Origin: Rugosimonospora africana
GTDB lineage: Bacteria; Actinomycetota; Actinomycetes; Mycobacteriales; Micromonosporaceae
Reading direction: 5' to 3'
Length of the DNA stretch: 64,000 nucleotides
NCBI RefSeq assembly: GCF_016862975.1
Contig: NZ_BONZ01000023.1
Span: 1 to 64,000, forward strand
This document shows positions 6,575 through 17,017 of this stretch, in pieces. The notes below the pieces were generated by a model. The model searched no databases. It worked only from the letters and a program-made list of their open reading frames with translations, and was not told the DNA's origin. The number at the start of each line of letters is the position of its first letter. Within the stretch, counting starts at the first letter, position 1. Both the position numbers and the translations under genes were made by a program.

Positions 6575-8254
6575 TTAGGGGCTGGTGCAGGTCGGTGTCG
6601 GCGTCGACGCACTGCCGGTACCGGTGAATCCGAACGTCGTCGAAGCGCCGGCGCCCAGCGCCCCGTTGTAGGAGACATTCTTGACGGTGACCGCCGAGCC
6701 GCTGGTGCTCAGCGTGCCGTTCCAGAGTTGGCTGATTCCCTGGCCGCTGGCGAGCGTCCACGTCACGGTCCAGCCGTTGATAGCCGAGGATCCGGCCTTC
6801 ACTGTCACCTCACCCTGGAAGCCGCCCTGCCAAGAGTTGACCGTGCGGTACGTCGCGGTGCAGGCACCGGCCGGCGGCGGTGAGGTCGGCGGGTTCGAGG
6901 TCGGTGGGTTCGAGGTGGGCGGGGCCGACGTGGGCGGGGCGGACGTCGGTGGGGCGGACGTGGGCGGGTTCGAGGTGGGTGGGGCCGAGGTCGGGGTGCC
7001 GTCGGTAAGGGTCGGCGTCGTCCAGTCCCGCCAGTCGGCCAGGTTGCCGGCCTTGCTGCTGGAGATCCTGATGACGCCGGCGGCGTTGCCGGTCTTCAGG
7101 AGGAACTTCTGGAGGTTCTGCTGGAGCGGAGTCTTCCACTCCGGTCGTACGGCGCAGTGGGTCCCGTCCTGGATGTCGGACCAGTAGCTGATGTTCTCGC
7201 CCGCGCCGAGTGCTTTGTAGACTTCGGCTCCGCCGAGGGCCGCGACGCTGCCGGACTTGGCGGCCAGCCAGTCGATGTGGGGGTTTTCCATCATGAACAG
7301 TCCCCGGGGTGCGACCATGGCGACCATTTCGTGGGTGTCCACGGGCAGGGTGTTCGGGTTGCCGGTGAAGGAGTTGAACGCGTCTCCGAGCCAGGGTTGT
7401 TCGGAGTAGGCGCTGCTGAGCGGTTGGGAGCCTGATTCGCCGGGGATGCCGCGGAAGATGGGGGCTCCGCCGCTGCCGGACTCGATGGGCATGGTCAGGG
7501 CGATGCGTTCGTCGAACGCGCCGGTGACGAAGGCGCCCTTGCCGTACCGGGAGCATCCGGTCACGCCCATCGCGTCGGCTTTGAGGATGCTGCCACCCGA
7601 TTGCTGGATGACGTCGATGATTCGGCTGACACCCCAGGCCCAGGCCATCAGCAGTCCAGTGCTGCTGTTGGAGCCGTAGAGGCTGTAGAACGCGCCTTGT
7701 TTGTTGGTGCGGGGTGTGCCTTCGGCGCCGACGGTCAGGGGGTTGTAGTTGATGACGGCCACGCCGGCGCCCTGGATGGTGGAGGTGTCCGCGCCGAGGC
7801 CGGCGAAGACCACCACGGCAGGGAACGGGCCGTTGCCGCTGGGCAGGCTCACACTCGCCGAGAAGCTGGTGCTCTTACCGTTGTCGGACACGTTGACGGT
7901 GATGCTGGTCCGCGACACCGTCCCGGACACGGTGGCGGGCTTGGCGGGCTTCGTACCGTAGACGTATCTCTCCGCCAGTTGTTTGATTTCTTCCCGCCGG
8001 CAGATCCAGTCGGACTTCGTGGTGATACGCGTACCGTTGAGCTTCTTGAACGGATCGGGAAGCTTCGCGTTGCTGGTCAACGAACCGGGCAACGACACCG
8101 CACAGTTCGCACCCTCATCTTCGACACCGATCGCCGCGGGCGCGGCGGTCCCGCTGGCTACTACCGCTACCGCTCCGGCGACCGTGAGCGTCACCGCTGT
8201 TGCCAGCACGACGACCGTCGAACGGAGCCGAGAGCGGCCTGAGCTTATGGTCAC
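6575..8254 (-). CDS. CE15 glucuronoyl methylesterase with C-terminal CBM2, secreted
   Basis: Secreted esterase predicted to cut the ester between 4-O-methyl-glucuronic acid of xylan and lignin alcohols. 559 residues from GTG 8254, which has GGAAGGAGA seven bases upstream; this beats an in-frame upstream ATG. Signal peptide about 1-40. CE15 alpha/beta-hydrolase domain about 55-410, with serine motif GCSRYGKGA near 233 and candidate His in DGTHCAVRPEW near 365. Then a linker of eight PPTS(A/N)-type pentapeptides, encoded by a 15-bp tandem repeat, and a CBM2 (about 465-559, NSWQGGFQGEV, WTVTWTLASGQ) for cellulose or xylan binding. Single gene, ending at a hairpin. Confidence 0.9.
   Translation of the reverse strand: MTISSGRSRLRSTVVVLATAVTLTVAGAVAVVASGTAAPAAIGVEDEGANCAVSLPGSLTSNAKLPDPFKKLNGTRITTKSDWICRREEIKQLAERYVYGTKPAKPATVSGTVSRTSITVNVSDNGKSTSFSASVSLPSGNGPFPAVVVFAGLGADTSTIQGAGVAVINYNPLTVGAEGTPRTNKQGAFYSLYGSNSSTGLLMAWAWGVSRIIDVIQQSGGSILKADAMGVTGCSRYGKGAFVTGAFDERIALTMPIESGSGGAPIFRGIPGESGSQPLSSAYSEQPWLGDAFNSFTGNPNTLPVDTHEMVAMVAPRGLFMMENPHIDWLAAKSGSVAALGGAEVYKALGAGENISYWSDIQDGTHCAVRPEWKTPLQQNLQKFLLKTGNAAGVIRISSSKAGNLADWRDWTTPTLTDGTPTSAPPTSNPPTSAPPTSAPPTSAPPTSNPPTSNPPTSPPPAGACTATYRTVNSWQGGFQGEVTVKAGSSAINGWTVTWTLASGQGISQLWNGTLSTSGSAVTVKNVSYNGALGAGASTTFGFTGTGSASTPTPTCTSP
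6886..6990. repeat. 15-bp in-frame tandem repeat (CE15-CBM2 linker)
   Basis: About eight copies of a 15-bp unit (GAGGTCGGCGGGTTC-like on the plus strand) encode the PPTS(A/N) linker. The unit length is a multiple of three, so copy changes keep the frame. Confidence 0.85.
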
Positions 8255-8724
8255 TGGGGCTCTCCTTCCGGGAGGGATGGAAGCGACTACCGCGATCGAT
8301 TGATCGATGGTCACGGATGTCAAGTACGTTCAAGGGTTGAGCAGTAAACTGTCGGACGTCAATATGTTTCCGGAAGTTTTCCGGTCATTTTCGCCGTTCG
8401 TCGCGGGGTGATGAGCGAGCGCGGACGCGACCCGTGGCGACCCCGTCGCGACGGCCCTGCGGGTACGCGGCCGGATCGGCTCGGCGGTGCCCACCGCTTC
8501 GCCGTGACCGGAAGGGCCGCCGCAGCCGGAAGGGTTGCGGTGCGTCAGATCCGGCGCCGGATCGGGCATCAGATCCGACCTCAGATCCGGAACTCTTCCG
8601 GAGCGGGCGCCGGCACGCCGGGCCAGCGAGACCGCGGCACGTCGGACTACTCTGCGACTCGGTGCCGGGGTTCGATGGTGGGGGCGCACCAGGCGCAGCG
8701 GACCCACGACGATCGGGGGAGCAC
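8255..8724. other. 470-bp divergent intergenic region
   Basis: It separates the CE15 gene from the methyltransferase gene. The CE15-proximal 120 bp are unusually AT-rich for this DNA and contain paired ATCGAT half-sites (around 8296-8309) and a TTCCGGAA-type palindrome near 8370. The rest is GC-rich, with repeated AGATCCG words and a perfect 16-base palindrome around 8549 (GATCCGGC and its complement). No gene was recognised. Confidence 0.4.
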
Positions 8725-9589: not shown

Positions 9590-9716
9590 TCGCTTGTTTC
9601 CGGTCGTTTCTTCGCTGGTCGTTTGTTCGGCGGTCGTTCGTTCGCCAGTCGTTGGCTGCTAGTCGTTTGGCTGCTAGTCGTCTGGTTCCCGGTCGTCGGG
9701 TTGATGGTCGTCTGAT
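9590..9716. repeat. Degenerate minisatellite, ~15-16 bp unit
   Basis: About eight imperfect copies each contain GGTCGT or AGTCGT followed by a T/G-rich tail. They fill the gap between the methyltransferase stop and the start of the GH67-like gene. Confidence 0.75.
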
Positions 9717-9743
9717 TGGCCGGCGGGCGTTTAGGGTGGTCGC

Positions 9744-12700
9744 ATGCGGCTGTCACGCCGGAGCCTGACCGTAGCCGCCACGGCGGTCGTCCTGTTGGCC
9801 ATCGGCGCACTGGTGGCCGATGGTGTCGATGGCGCCCTCGGCATCTCCACCGCCCCGGCCAGCGCACCCGTCGAGCATCCGGCCGTCGCCCCGGCCCACT
9901 CGATGGTCGCGCCGCCGCGGTGGGTCGCCGTCTCGGTGCCCGCGGACAAGCGGGTCACGCTGGCCGCCGACGCGGTCGCCGCCGCGCTCGCCGGCCGCGG
10001 CCTGCTCCGGCCCACTGTCCAACCGGCTGGCTCGGGGTCGGCGGGCTCGGGATCGGCGGGCACCGGGCCGGCGGGCTCGGGGTCGGTGGGCTCGGGATCG
10101 ACCGGCACTGCGCCGGCGGGTGCGACGCTGCGGGTGGTGCTCGTCGCGTCGCTGCCGGGATCGCCGCCGCCGGGACCACCACCGACGGGATCGCCGCTGC
10201 CTGGATCGCCACCGACGGGATCGCCGTCGCCGGGGGCGGCGCTGCCGGCGAGCGACGAGGCGTTCCGGATCCGCAGCGACGGACGCGGTGGGGGACTGGT
10301 CCTCGAAGCCAGCTCCGTCGCCGGTGCCGCCAGCGGTCTCTACACCGTCGCCGACCGGATCCGCTCTGGGGAAAGCGTGCTGCCGGCCGGCGACGACGGC
10401 AGAGTGGTGGTGCCGCGGCTCGGGTTGCGGATGACCGACCTCGGCTCGGTCGGCCTCGACCCCGATCCGGCGCGGTTCGCCGCCGGTACCGACTACAACC
10501 TCAACACCGACGTGGTGTCCAGCGCGATCCTGCCCCGCGCCCCGTGGGTCGACCAGCACGCGGTCGCGGCCATCTCGGCGCAGTACCGGCAGTTCGTCGA
10601 CCACGCGCTCGTCGAGGGGTACAACGCTCTGACCCTGCCGGGCTTCCTGGAGTACGTCACGTTCGCCGGCACCGGGGTCTACCCGGCCGGCGACCCGCAC
10701 GTCGCCCGCGCCCGGGCGATGGTCGCCGCGTTCGGCCCAGTCTGGCGCTACGCCCACGACATGGGAATGAAGGTCTACGTCAAGACCGACATGCTGGCGC
10801 TGTCACCGCCGTTGAAGGCATACCTGACGGCGACCGCCGGGATGGACCTCACCAGTCCGAAGCTGTGGTCGGTGTACCAGGACGGCATCAGGGAGCTGTA
10901 CGCCGCCATGCCGTTCCTGGACGGCATCATGCTGCGGGTCGGCGAGGGCGGCTCCGACTACAGGCTGGCCGGCTGGGACTACTACTCCGAGATCGACGTA
11001 ACGACGGTACCGGCGGTGCAGGCGATGCTGCGCGCGTTCCTCCGGGTCGCCGACCAGACGGGTATCGATGTCATCTTCCGTACCTGGAGCGTGAGCCTAG
11101 GCGACGTCGGCGACATGCACACCGATCCCGACACCTTCGCCAAGGTGCTCGACGGCATCGATGATGAGCACCTGATCGTGTCCACCAAGTACGTGGCCGG
11201 CGACTACTACAGCTACCTCCCGCTCAATCCGACGCTGACGGTCGGCCGGCAGCGACGCATCATCGAGTTCCAGGCCCGCCGCGAGTTCGAGGGCTTCGGC
11301 TCGCTTCCCAACGACCTCGGCGACCTCGAACAGCAAGCGTTGCGCACACTGCTGGCCGCCAACCCGAACATCATCGGCGTGTGGGTCTGGACCCAGGACG
11401 GCGGCCCGCTGCTGGCCGGTCCGCGGACCCTGTACCTGCGCGCCGGCTTCTGGCAGCTGTGGGATCTCGACGTCTACCTCACCTCGCGCCTGGCCCGGGA
11501 TCCGGACACCGACACCGGACAGGCCACCGGCGACTGGATCCGGCAGACGCTGTCCACCGATCCAGGCACCGTCGACGCGCTCTCGCGCGCCTTCGCGTTG
11601 TCCCGGCAGGCGGTGACCGACGGCCTCTACATCGGCCCGTTCGCGAGCCGGTCCGTCAAGGCGCTCGGCCTGCGGCCGCCACCGATGATGTGGATTTTCG
11701 AGTGGGACATCGTCACCGGCGACACCGCCACCCTGGACAGCATCTACGCGGTCAGCCGGGACCAGGTCGACCAGGCCATCGCCCAGGGCGACCGCGCCGT
11801 CGCCACGGCACGCCAGATGCAGGCACTCATCGACGGTACCGGCGCGGCCACCTGGGCCACACCCGCGCTGCGTCAGTCCATGATGGACACCGCCGCGTAC
11901 CAGGTGAATCTGTTTCAGACCCTCGGTGCCTACCGGACCATGGTGCTGCGCCACGCGCGGTGGCTCGACAGCGGGTCGGCGGCCGACCAGCGCGCGTGGC
12001 TCGCGGCGCGGGCGGCGTACCAGAAGGCGCGCGAGGAGCACCTGCGGCGCTACGCCGGCGATGTCGACCTGCCGGCGTACAACTTCGCCGCTGCCGATCT
12101 CGGCCTGGCCCGCGACGATCGCGACCAGACCATGGCCTGGCTCGCCCGCGTCCTACTCGCCCTGCTGCTCGCCGCGCTGGCCGCCGGAGGGCTGGCCAGC
12201 CGCGCCGCCGGACGCGCCGGGACGGGCGCCACCCGCGGACGGTGGAGCACCTGGCCCGGGATGGCCGCCCTGCGCGCGTTGTGGATCGGCGCGACACAAC
12301 CGTGGCGGGTCGCCGGCATCGAGTCTCCGTCGGTTTCCCCGGCGCGGTCGTGGTCGCGGCTCGATCGGGTGCTGGTCTGGCTGATCCCGGCGGCCGTGCT
12401 CGCCGGGAGCCGGGCCATCTACGCCTGGTTCGCCGCGCCGGCCCATCTGATCCTGGTGCTCGGCGGGTGGCTGCTGTTCGCGCTCGCGCTGCGGCTCCTG
12501 ATCGGGCGCGCCGACCCGTTCCGGCTGTGGGCCGCGGTCGGCGGCGCCGCGATGCTGCGTACCGTCATCCTGCTCGTCGCGTTGGTCAGCCGCGGGCCGG
12601 GCCGGTACTGGTACCTGTTCTGGACGGCACCCACCTCGCGATCGGTCTACATCACGGTCGCGTTCGCCGCGTTCGGTTGGGTGTTCGTGGTGGCATTCCT

Positions 12701-13184
12701 GGCGTTGCACGACGGGTACGGGCTGGTGCGCCGCCGCGCAATGGGCCGGGTGGTCGCAGCCACCGGGGTCGTGCTGGCCGTACTCGGTGGGCTGGTCGCC
12801 GCGATCGGCCTGGAACGCGCACTGACGATCTGGAACGACCAGTTGGCGCTGCTGCCCTGGGGACTGGCGCGCATCCTCGGCATCACGGTGTATCTGGGAA
12901 TACCGGCATCGATCCCGGATTATGTGTCGGTCGCTGGCGCGGTGCTCGTCGCCGCCGGGCTCGCCCTGGGCTGGCAGGGGCGTCGCCGAGCCGCCGGCAG
13001 GGACCGCCGGCAGGGACCGCCGGCCAACCGTTCCGCCCTCGGTTGCCGGCCCGGCCGCGCTAGGTGCCGAGCACTCCGGTGTAACTCAGTCTTGAGGCGT
13101 CCGCGCCGGTCGGCCGTCCATTGGGACGGCCGACCGGGCGTTAGCCCCCGCACGACTACCAGTGCAGCGGAAGCGTGGCGATGA
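9744..13184 (+). CDS. GH67-like (alpha-glucuronidase-type) extracellular domain fused to a multi-spanning membrane domain
   Basis: 1146 codons from ATG 9744. Residues 1-27 form a signal anchor. A GH67/GH20-type N-terminal accessory domain (about 45-215) carries two Gly/Ser/Pro-rich insertions (about 93-125 and 138-165). A TIM-barrel-like region follows (about 215-600) with LRVGEGGSDY near 395, QARREFEGFG near 513 and NIIGVWVWTQDGG near 548. A helical segment (about 600-790) leads into about eight hydrophobic helices between 796 and 1085. This architecture suggests a membrane-tethered glycosidase acting outside the cell; uronic acid release is inferred from the fold only. The last ~70 codons are Arg-rich, run through a perfect hairpin at 13106-13137 and overlap the convergent esterase gene, so the true stop is doubtful. 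Confidence 0.72.
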   Translation: MRLSRRSLTVAATAVVLLAIGALVADGVDGALGISTAPASAPVEHPAVAPAHSMVAPPRWVAVSVPADKRVTLAADAVAAALAGRGLLRPTVQPAGSGSAGSGSAGTGPAGSGSVGSGSTGTAPAGATLRVVLVASLPGSPPPGPPPTGSPLPGSPPTGSPSPGAALPASDEAFRIRSDGRGGGLVLEASSVAGAASGLYTVADRIRSGESVLPAGDDGRVVVPRLGLRMTDLGSVGLDPDPARFAAGTDYNLNTDVVSSAILPRAPWVDQHAVAAISAQYRQFVDHALVEGYNALTLPGFLEYVTFAGTGVYPAGDPHVARARAMVAAFGPVWRYAHDMGMKVYVKTDMLALSPPLKAYLTATAGMDLTSPKLWSVYQDGIRELYAAMPFLDGIMLRVGEGGSDYRLAGWDYYSEIDVTTVPAVQAMLRAFLRVADQTGIDVIFRTWSVSLGDVGDMHTDPDTFAKVLDGIDDEHLIVSTKYVAGDYYSYLPLNPTLTVGRQRRIIEFQARREFEGFGSLPNDLGDLEQQALRTLLAANPNIIGVWVWTQDGGPLLAGPRTLYLRAGFWQLWDLDVYLTSRLARDPDTDTGQATGDWIRQTLSTDPGTVDALSRAFALSRQAVTDGLYIGPFASRSVKALGLRPPPMMWIFEWDIVTGDTATLDSIYAVSRDQVDQAIAQGDRAVATARQMQALIDGTGAATWATPALRQSMMDTAAYQVNLFQTLGAYRTMVLRHARWLDSGSAADQRAWLAARAAYQKAREEHLRRYAGDVDLPAYNFAAADLGLARDDRDQTMAWLARVLLALLLAALAAGGLASRAAGRAGTGATRGRWSTWPGMAALRALWIGATQPWRVAGIESPSVSPARSWSRLDRVLVWLIPAAVLAGSRAIYAWFAAPAHLILVLGGWLLFALALRLLIGRADPFRLWAAVGGAAMLRTVILLVALVSRGPGRYWYLFWTAPTSRSVYITVAFAAFGWVFVVAFLALHDGYGLVRRRAMGRVVAATGVVLAVLGGLVAAIGLERALTIWNDQLALLPWGLARILGITVYLGIPASIPDYVSVAGAVLVAAGLALGWQGRRRAAGRDRRQGPPANRSALGCRPGRARCRALRCNSVLRRPRRSAVHWDGRPGVSPRTTTSAAEAWR
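10018..10245. repeat. In-frame Gly/Ser/Pro-rich tandem repeats within the GH67-like gene
   Basis: Two blocks of degenerate 15-18 bp units (CGGGCTCGGG-type, then GATCGCC/ACCGACGG-type) encode low-complexity AGSGS and PGSPPTG stretches inside the accessory domain. Confidence 0.7.
13106..13137. terminator. Perfect 14-bp hairpin between convergent genes
   Basis: CCGGTCGGCCGTCC at 13106-13119 pairs perfectly with 13124-13137 around an ATTG loop. It is 19 bp beyond the CE2 esterase stop (minus strand) but lies inside the last codons of the plus-strand GH67-like frame. Confidence 0.7.
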
Positions 13185-14646
13185 AGGTGTTGAGCAGGCC
13201 GGAGATGATCTGGTCGTCGTGCGCCGAAGGGTGCCAGTCGCAGCCCATGCGGTCAAGGTTCGGGTCGTCGTAGTACCAGTAGTAGACCCGGCTGTCGCCC
13301 GCGGCGTTGCGGTCCTTGACGATCTGCTGTGCCGTGCTGGCGAACACCGTGGTGTTGGACAGCAGCGTGGCGCTGACCACGATGATGGCGTTCGTCCCGT
13401 ACCGGGAGCGGAGTTTGTCAATGAAGCCCTGGTAAGCGGTCTTGTACGCGGCGACCAGTTGGTCCACGGTGGACCACGGCTCGTTGGCGTTCAGCGCGGT
13501 GGAGAAGTCGTTGATGCCCAAGCCGACCACGACCAGTTGCGGGCGCCAGGTGCCGGGGACGGGCCACGGATCGGTGTTCACCGCCTGCAGGGTCCGGTCG
13601 TAGTACGTGCGGAAGTCGGTGCCCGGGCTGCTACCGCCGTAGTTGCGAACCATGCCCATGCCCGACCAGGCATTGATCTGGTAGTCGGCGTTGAGGCTGT
13701 GCGCGGTCAGTGCCCCGAAGCTCTTGTCGGCGTCGCTGTTGGCGGTGACGCCACCGTTGGTGGAGCAGTCGCGGGTGGTGGACAGGTTGCCGTACCCGGC
13801 GGTGTATGAGTCGCCGATGAATTCGATCTGCCGGCTGCGGGCGACCGGCTTGTTGAGGATGCTTCCGCCGGGTGCGGCGACGAACCCGCCGAACTGGCCC
13901 GCGGCCCACTGGCTCTCGGTACGCTTGACCAGCCGTACCGTGTGGTCGGTGTTGCTGAGGTTGTTGACCCAGTAGGTGGTCTGGCCCGGAGTGATCACGG
14001 TGGCGACCGTGGCGCCGTCGACCTGGACGTCGTAGTCATTGTTCGCGTCGTTGAGCACAATGCCGACACCGGTGCCGTGGACCCGGCCCTCGAAGTAGAC
14101 GCCGGGCCAGGTGTACTGAACGGTGGAACCGTTGTCCTGGACCCGTCCCGCGGTGTTCACCTGGTTCAGCACCTTGACTGTGGGCGGCGGGGACGTGGTA
14201 CCGGTGCTCGGGGACGGGCTGGGGGAGTTCACCGCCCCGGTGCACACGGTGCCGTTGAGCGAGAACGTCGTCGGTACCGGGTTGGCACCGGTGTCGGAGC
14301 CGGTGAATCCGATCGACGTGGAGGCGTTGGTAGCCAGGGAACCGTTCCAGCTCGCGTTGGCGGCCGTGACGTGCGTGCCGGACTGTGACCAGTTGGCGCT
14401 CCAGCCCTGGGCGACCTTCTGCCCGCTGTCGGGGAAGTCGAACGTGAGGGTCCAGCTCGATATCGGACCCCCGAGGTTGGTGATGGCCACGGCTCCGTTG
14501 AAACCGCCGGGCCACTGGTTGGTCACGCTGTAGGTGACGGAACATCCGAGGGCCGCGGCCGTGGCGGGTAACGCGACGGCCACGGTACCGGCCGCGAGCA
14601 CAAGCCCGACGGCGCAGCCCGTTGATAGTGCGTGTCGACGATTCAT
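13156..14646 (-). CDS. CBM2-CE2 acetyl (xylan) esterase, secreted
   Basis: 496 residues from ATG 14646 with GAGGAG seven bases upstream. Signal peptide about 1-32. CBM2 about 33-136 (NQWPGGFNGAV, SSWTLTFDFP). Ser/Pro/Thr linker. CE2-type N-terminal jelly roll (about 156-255, TWPGVYFEGRVHGTG). SGNH esterase domain to the end, with IEFIGDSYTAGYGN (Ser near 277), GLGINDFS and a C-terminal DWHPS. CE2 enzymes remove O-acetyl groups from xylan, glucomannan or sugar 6-OH positions. The gene converges on the GH67-like gene with a 29-bp overlap. It resembles the SGNH-CBM2 gene at 41.7 kb, which has the module order reversed. Confidence 0.88.
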   Translation of the reverse strand: MNRRHALSTGCAVGLVLAAGTVAVALPATAAALGCSVTYSVTNQWPGGFNGAVAITNLGGPISSWTLTFDFPDSGQKVAQGWSANWSQSGTHVTAANASWNGSLATNASTSIGFTGSDTGANPVPTTFSLNGTVCTGAVNSPSPSPSTGTTSPPPTVKVLNQVNTAGRVQDNGSTVQYTWPGVYFEGRVHGTGVGIVLNDANNDYDVQVDGATVATVITPGQTTYWVNNLSNTDHTVRLVKRTESQWAAGQFGGFVAAPGGSILNKPVARSRQIEFIGDSYTAGYGNLSTTRDCSTNGGVTANSDADKSFGALTAHSLNADYQINAWSGMGMVRNYGGSSPGTDFRTYYDRTLQAVNTDPWPVPGTWRPQLVVVGLGINDFSTALNANEPWSTVDQLVAAYKTAYQGFIDKLRSRYGTNAIIVVSATLLSNTTVFASTAQQIVKDRNAAGDSRVYYWYYDDPNLDRMGCDWHPSAHDDQIISGLLNTFIATLPLHW

Positions 14647-16111: not shown

Positions 16112-17017
16112 TCAGCGGCGGACCGCCGTCGCGAGATCAGTGGTCATAGCCAACTCGACCTCGTCGCCGTAGCCGGACAGCGTCGCGATCAGTTCGGCCG
16201 TCAGGTCGTCGCGCACCTCGGGCGGCAGGATCAGGTGTGCCGACGTGGTGTTGATGCGCGCCACGTAATCGGGCACCGACATCCGGCGCGTCCAGTGGTA
16301 CCGGCGCGTACGCAGGTCCGTGAAGTAGGTGCGCGCCTCCGCGTACACCTCGGGCCATCCCTCGGGGACGCTGACGATCCTGTCCGGGTCGGACTCGGCA
16401 GTCGGCTCGTCGTGTACCGAGCGCGTCTCGATGCCACGGCGGTCGTAGGCGGCCGTGTACGCGGTCGCGACGCGCGGGTCGGCGTAGTGGTCCTCGTTCC
16501 AGAACAGCGCGATCACGCCGCCGCCGCGGATCGCGGCACCGGCGTTGGCCCAGCGTGTCTCCGGATCGGTCCAGTGCCACGCCTGCCCGCTGATCAGACC
16601 ATCGAAGCCGGGCGCACCGGCCGGCCGCGCCGCCGACCACTCCTCGAACGTTGCCACGTCGACAGCCACGTCCACGGCCACGTCGACGTCCACAGGCACG
16701 GCCACATCGACGTCCACGTCCACAGGCACCGCCACGTCGGCGGCCACGGCCACGTGCGGGTCCGCGTCGCCGGACAGCTTCGCCGACAGCACGGCCGCCA
16801 TCTCCGGGTCCGGCTCGACGCAGGTCATGGCCATGCCGCGGGCCGCGAACGCGACGGTGGCGATGCCGGTGCCGGCGCCCACCTCGAGGATCCGCCGGCC
16901 GGGCACCATCGCGACCACGTCGTCGACGAGTTGGTCCGGGTACCGGGGCCGGTACTTGTCGTAGTCCGCGGCGGCCGGGCCGAAGCTTCGCGCGCGGACG
17001 CTGTAGATGTCGGTCAC
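16112..17017 (-). CDS. Class I SAM-dependent methyltransferase with an expanded Val-Asp repeat
   Basis: 301 residues from ATG 17017. SAM-binding motif ILEVGAGTGIAT lies at about 43-54 and the acidic end of strand 2 (CVEPDPEM) at about 68. Between residues about 88 and 120 is an unusual run of alternating Val/Ala and Asp (VDVDVDVAVPVDVD-type) encoded by a hexanucleotide-like repeat, placed in the loop where relatives have only a few residues before FEEW. A C-terminal WHWTDPE motif is typical of the Methyltransf_11/25 type. It starts 36 bp after the aldo-keto reductase stop, so the two probably form an operon. The substrate is unknown. Confidence 0.82.
   Translation of the reverse strand: MTDIYSVRARSFGPAAADYDKYRPRYPDQLVDDVVAMVPGRRILEVGAGTGIATVAFAARGMAMTCVEPDPEMAAVLSAKLSGDADPHVAVAADVAVPVDVDVDVAVPVDVDVAVDVAVDVATFEEWSAARPAGAPGFDGLISGQAWHWTDPETRWANAGAAIRGGGVIALFWNEDHYADPRVATAYTAAYDRRGIETRSVHDEPTAESDPDRIVSVPEGWPEVYAEARTYFTDLRTRRYHWTRRMSVPDYVARINTTSAHLILPPEVRDDLTAELIATLSGYGDEVELAMTTDLATAVRR
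16653..16756. repeat. In-frame 6-bp-based repeat inside the methyltransferase gene
   Basis: Alternating GTCGAC, GTCCAC and GGCCAC words form about 16 hexamers that encode the Asp-Val run. Copy-number change would keep the frame. Confidence 0.8.

Follow-up and report, generated by a model that had tools for sequence, protein, structure and literature searches.

GH67 α-glucuronidases clip glucuronic acid off plant xylan. The Geobacillus enzyme AguA (1k9d/1mqp) and Cellvibrio GlcA67A (1gqi) are composed of an N-domain, a barrel and a C-terminal helical region, an architecture that they have in common with the protein described here. The K281, R318 and K359 positions of GH67 (1mqp numbering) bind the carboxylate of the sugar. 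BP0997, a GH138 enzyme, has as its target rhamnogalacturonan II, a pectin in which sugar acids occur. The catalytic acid of GH67 sits on a highly mobile loop, and GH115 α-glucuronidases and GH67 do not share active-site residues (PMC3879575).

We analyzed a stretch of 64,000 nucleotides of Rugosimonospora africana (contig NZ_BONZ01000023.1, positions 1 to 64,000; the window). A single open frame on the plus strand (9744..13184; ATG at 9744, stop at 13184) encodes a membrane-integrated GH67-like protein of 1146 residues, delimited from reading frame, relatives and structure model. The stretch AGGGTGG lies immediately 5′ of its ATG, and the 11.1-Mb assembly holds one copy of the ORF. The whole-protein model, built with 77 homologues, has a mean pLDDT of 84 and a pTM of 0.84.

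A membrane helix at residues 6–32 (9759..9839), seen in hydropathy and model, opens the protein with its basic N-terminus inside, i.e., the signal anchor named in a preliminary description of this DNA. It is followed by a GH67N/GH20b-like accessory region (residues 56–224, 9909..10415), defined by the model and by the VIA alignment to GH67, which begins at residue 56; homologue L064 gave a weak GH20b match. As described before, this region holds two low-complexity inserts (about 94–125 and 136–170). They are Gly/Ser- and Pro-rich, have a pLDDT of about 48 and are not part of the family consensus. Model and VIA alignment place the catalytic-type barrel at residues 225–560 (10416..11423), where 139 of 336 columns are conserved to at least 90%, and the two motifs noticed earlier, LRVGEGGSDY (397–406) and QARREFEGFG (510–519), lie within it. 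The GH67C-like helical region (residues 561–792, 11424..12119) was assigned from a sub-threshold Pfam match, the profile, the model and VIA. It contains a near-invariant loop, GLxPPPMMWIFEWDIVTGD (residues 642–660, 11667..11723), with 14 of 19 columns invariant and a pLDDT of only about 46–57. Such low model confidence could be expected if a ligand or partner orders the loop.

Behind the membrane domain, an unconserved tail (residues 1085–1146, 12996..13184) was set apart by conservation, model and overlap with the convergent gene at 13156..14646 (minus strand). Its pLDDT is 31–41, and the alignment rows dwindle from 41 of 78 at residue 1085 to four of 78 at residue 1120. Because the tail is of low confidence, missing in most relatives and overlaps the convergent gene, the functional part of the protein probably stops at around residue 1085 and the tail is probably without function. 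A strong inverted repeat, cggtcggccgtcc / ggacggccgaccg, lies at 13105–13140 between the convergent genes, within the tail, and suggests that the real stop lies farther upstream.

The best solved matches of the ectodomain model were GH67 α-glucuronidases. VIA aligned residues 56–758 of the model with residues 19–679 of 1k9d (Z 20.9, rmsd 3.5, 539 residues), and Foldseek gave E 4e-14; the overall GH67 fold, i.e., N-domain, barrel and C-terminal helical domain, is present, the structurally aligned residues being about 13% identical. The VIA runners-up were GH138 (Z 17.7), GH84 (about 15.8) and GH115 (14.2). GH138 and GH115 (4c91) were compared by fold alone: GH138 BP0997 thus ranks second, below GH67, and its solved chains are without a membrane domain, unlike the window protein, whereas GH115 has a related fold but the window family carries the GH67 active-site set.

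Sequence profiles agree with the fold comparison. The family profile detected solved GH67 structures by sequence (E 1e-5), and hhalign linked it to the genome's own canonical GH67 (E 4e-6) and to a Novosphingobium GH67 (E 4e-15). The former, a canonical α-glucuronidase (L082 1042-3177; G000 contig C35), scores 438.9 bits for PF07488. In contrast, the window protein reached none of the GH67N, GH67M and GH67C cut-offs of Pfam; GH67C alone appeared, with 16.8 bits against a cut-off of 27, which homologue L080 clears with 30.7 bits. No Pfam model was matched above its cut-off and NCBIfam gave zero matches. Matches of phmmer to MHC class I chains (E 0.01–0.8) were rejected as chance. Judged from its sequence, the protein resembles GH67 but is not placed in that family, because its Pfam scores fall short, a membrane domain is added and the activity is a prediction. 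The earlier view of a GH67-like glycosidase fused to a membrane domain thus stands with respect to fold, fusion and acidic residues, but not with respect to GH67 membership by Pfam.

A soluble Persicobacter protein (L084 2668-4311; 548 residues) has the same RxGE, FRxW, KxxxxD and ExQxxREYEG signature. It lacks a membrane domain, is plasmid-borne and unannotated and also scores below the Pfam cut-offs. We therefore regard the membrane-fused family, on the grounds of this shared signature, as a branch within a broader GH67-like group. Beside the Persicobacter gene lies an ORF with a likeness to GH95 by eye, and another plasmid of this strain carries a second copy of the gene.

To compare the active sites, the family was aligned with three GH67 enzymes and one soluble relative in 1mqp numbering. 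Six of seven positions matched exactly, i.e., R398, R446, K482, D487, E508 and E514 align with K281, R318, K359, D364, E386 and E392. They are encoded within R398-V-G-E401 (10935..10946), at R446 (11079..11081), from K482 to D487 (11187..11204) and from E508 to E514 (11265..11285), all on the plus strand. The seventh, E401, lies one residue before the GH67 acid E285 with both hhalign and MAFFT. All seven residues are invariant in 78 sequences. PDB entries 1k9e and 1mqr show the Geobacillus enzyme mutated at E285 and E386. Since the acid loop of GH67 is highly mobile, the one-residue offset is compatible with an acid role, and E401 is a candidate for the catalytic acid, not a proven one.

Conservation, hydropathy and model define a seven-helix membrane domain at residues 793–1084 (12120..12995), with helices at 793–824, 872–893, 899–920, 926–948, 963–992, 996–1021 and 1057–1077; the last outward loop also carries two short helices. 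About eight C-terminal helices had been counted before, a number reached only when the N-terminal anchor is included. With these eight membrane helices in all, the protein departs from the GH67 enzymes, which are soluble and have no membrane domain. Structure prediction of both halves, which had been suggested for checking the fusion, thus gave a GH67-like ectodomain and a confident seven-helix domain; folded alone, the latter had a pLDDT of 90.8 and a pTM of 0.88. Searches for a solved relative of this domain returned nothing convincing (Foldseek best E 1.1; VIA best Z 6.6 over 61 residues), although the lack of a solved match for the modelled domain falls short of proving that its fold is new.

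With the ectodomain assumed to be outside, residues 894–898, 949–962 and 1022–1056 face outward and the remaining loops inward. The second outward loop (949–962, 12588..12629) carries GPGxYWxxFW and the third (1022–1056, 12807..12911) GLERALTxWNDQxALLPWGLxRILGITVYLGIP, with 21 of 35 columns conserved to at least 90%. By this measure, 32 of 54 columns are conserved in the outward loops, compared with five of 68 in the inward loops (p 4e-10) and 41 of 176 in the membrane helices (p 2e-6). As the outward loops are conserved and the inward loops variable, the outer face is most likely the functional surface of the membrane domain. This pattern favours an outer-face contact with substrate or ectodomain and speaks against signalling in the cytoplasm; loop 642–660 may be what meets the outward loops.

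Both halves occur together in other proteins. Scanning genome contigs brought up 161 stretches that encode relatives. The 80 that we retrieved all belong to Actinomycetota (Micromonosporaceae, Cellulomonadaceae, Microbacteriaceae, Thermomonosporaceae, Promicromonosporaceae, Pseudonocardiaceae and others); almost every one of them extends to query residue 1054 or past it. The 77 aligned relatives are 47–63% identical to the window protein and form with it the conservation alignment of 78 sequences. Separate ectodomain and membrane-domain profiles were run against 151 genomes drawn evenly from the window's own family. Each profile matched in 40 genomes, the same ones for both, where the two matches adjoin, and in none of the others; the membrane domain was never found without the ectodomain in these genomes, nor on the plasmids searched. 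The membrane half of genome G119 is broken across reading frames, and a contig end occurs in G005. Among 296 genomes sampled across the phylum there were three matches, none of them in other families of the same order; the gene is hence patchy, in scattered Actinomycetota. Its tree mostly tracks families, with the window protein as a long branch beside Actinomadura. The fusion is genuine and obligate, and it represents a kind of surface enzyme without earlier description; the literature that we searched, with most subscription journals outside it, held no account of a membrane-fused GH67.

We propose, with somewhat more confidence than doubt, that the protein is a cell-surface, membrane-integrated exo-uronidase of GH67 type in which the outer face of the membrane domain helps to place the substrate. 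One N-terminal and seven C-terminal helices would keep the GH67-like enzyme at the outer face of the cytoplasmic membrane, where it would remove a terminal α-linked uronic acid, most likely glucuronic or 4-O-methylglucuronic acid. The carboxylates D487, E508 and E514 would stand on one side and E401 would act as the acid on a mobile loop, while R398, R446 and K482 would handle the carboxylate of the sugar. The outward face of the membrane domain, together with loop 642–660, would complete or orient the substrate site, such that a membrane-near glycan is used, and the membrane domain would not be a signal relay. Against this proposal stand the one-residue offset of E401, Pfam scores below the GH67 cut-offs with an activity predicted from sequence, and the few genomic clues, with no conserved neighbourhood and no common operon. 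Moreover, the conserved outer loops could merely pack the ectodomain onto the membrane domain.

The genes next to the ORF raise the possibility of a membrane-anchored xylan debrancher with the seven-helix domain as anchor alone, stripping (4-O-methyl)glucuronic acid from xylo-oligosaccharides before uptake; we consider this doubtful, yet well worth weighing. Such an enzyme might, as an equally tentative part of the reading, act at the cell surface beside secreted esterases. In the window, the gene sits between a CE15-type glucuronoyl esterase with CBM2 (6575..8323, minus strand; PF22244 E 1e-80, PF00553) and the convergent neighbour, a family 2 carbohydrate esterase (CE2) with CBM2 (PF17996, PF00657, PF00553), both of them fitting glucuronoxylan. 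Pfam tallies of immediate neighbours elsewhere gave single xylan-type cases, including GH10, GH62, GH43 and arabinofuranosidase. Of the 40 genomes with the gene, 37 have GH10, compared with 86 of the 111 that lack the gene (Fisher p 0.055), in a test that ignores shared ancestry. But canonical GH67 was not associated (20 of 40 versus 42 of 111, p 0.19, shared ancestry likewise ignored), and three gene-bearing genomes of the 151, all of one genus, have neither GH10 nor GH67. The window's flanking genes are not conserved in the relatives, which showed no conserved operon or neighbourhood and synteny at the genus level alone. Finally, an obligate domain of seven helices whose outer loops are invariant is more than a plain anchor would require.

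An S-adenosyl methyltransferase gene lies directly 5′ of the ORF, separated from its start by a GTCGTT-rich repetitive stretch (9590–9735). A methyltransferase ORF at 16112–17017 (minus strand) carries a long Val-Asp repeat, VAVPVDVDVDVAVPVDVDVAVDVAVDVA. Agromyces (L064, L066, L072, L074, L076), unlike most genera, has kept several adjoining genes (clusters c7, c8, c18, c19). No CebR or similar operator was found in 77 upstream regions.

With the same reservation as for the xylan debrancher, the protein might instead be an envelope or lipid enzyme on a membrane-attached substrate, i.e., glucuronosyl diacylglycerol or a lipid-carried wall polymer that contains uronic acid. The membrane domain could then, as a possible though hardly firm extension, bind the lipid moiety within the outer leaflet and offer the sugar to the barrel. 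Several observations are in line with this: the conserved residues R890, R939, W956, E1024, N1031, D1032 and R1043 cluster in the outward loops and the outer membrane half, the fusion is obligate, and the gene mostly stands alone, with a close same-strand gene upstream in 12 of 74 relatives and downstream in 15 of 76. Glucuronyl- and methylglucuronyl-diacylglycerols also occur in Actinomycetota, namely in Mycobacterium tuberculosis (PMC12722247). A lipid-gene neighbourhood was not found, however, and the patchy distribution within the family and the unmatched other families of the order speak against such a role.

For the exo-uronidase that we propose, glucuronoxylan fragments are thus a plausible but uncertain substrate, and a uronosyl glycan or lipid attached to the membrane is a serious contender of about the same likelihood; something else altogether would be a lesser option. 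That the GH67-like barrel and the outer-leaflet membrane domain jointly build a single active site, with a lipid-attached glycan of uronic acid as its substrate, is a speculative variant, which we consider rather improbable. We know of no uronidase for which such a joint site is described.

Alternatively, the family could have retained the GH67 fold as a uronosyl transferase or binding protein that does not hydrolyse. The shifted E401 and the PPPMMWIFEWD loop, which has no clear GH67 counterpart, would fit, but the acidic and basic active-site positions are all invariant, unusual for a dead enzyme, and we regard this as improbable. Least supported is the coupling to transport or sensing put forward in the preliminary description, in which the membrane domain imports the freed uronic acid or signals its presence. 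Seven confidently modelled helices and invariant arginines in the membrane domain might suggest it, yet the cytoplasmic loops and the C-terminus are variable, a cytoplasmic domain is lacking, and the Foldseek and VIA searches revealed no likeness to a known transporter or receptor, making this quite unlikely. The preliminary description had named a join by sequencing or frameshift error, with no homologue sharing the fusion, as what would refute it. That an assembly error or frameshift joined two genes is virtually inconceivable, as every relative retrieved has the identical join; nothing looks odd except the unconserved tail beyond residue 1085.

If the proposal of a membrane-integrated exo-uronidase is true, scattered Actinomycetota possess a GH67-type uronidase that is built into the membrane. 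Its seven-helix domain, confidently modelled and without a convincing solved relative, is a ready target for structure determination and assays. The finding would point to surface processing of glucuronoxylan or to a new enzyme that turns over uronic-acid lipids or wall polymers.
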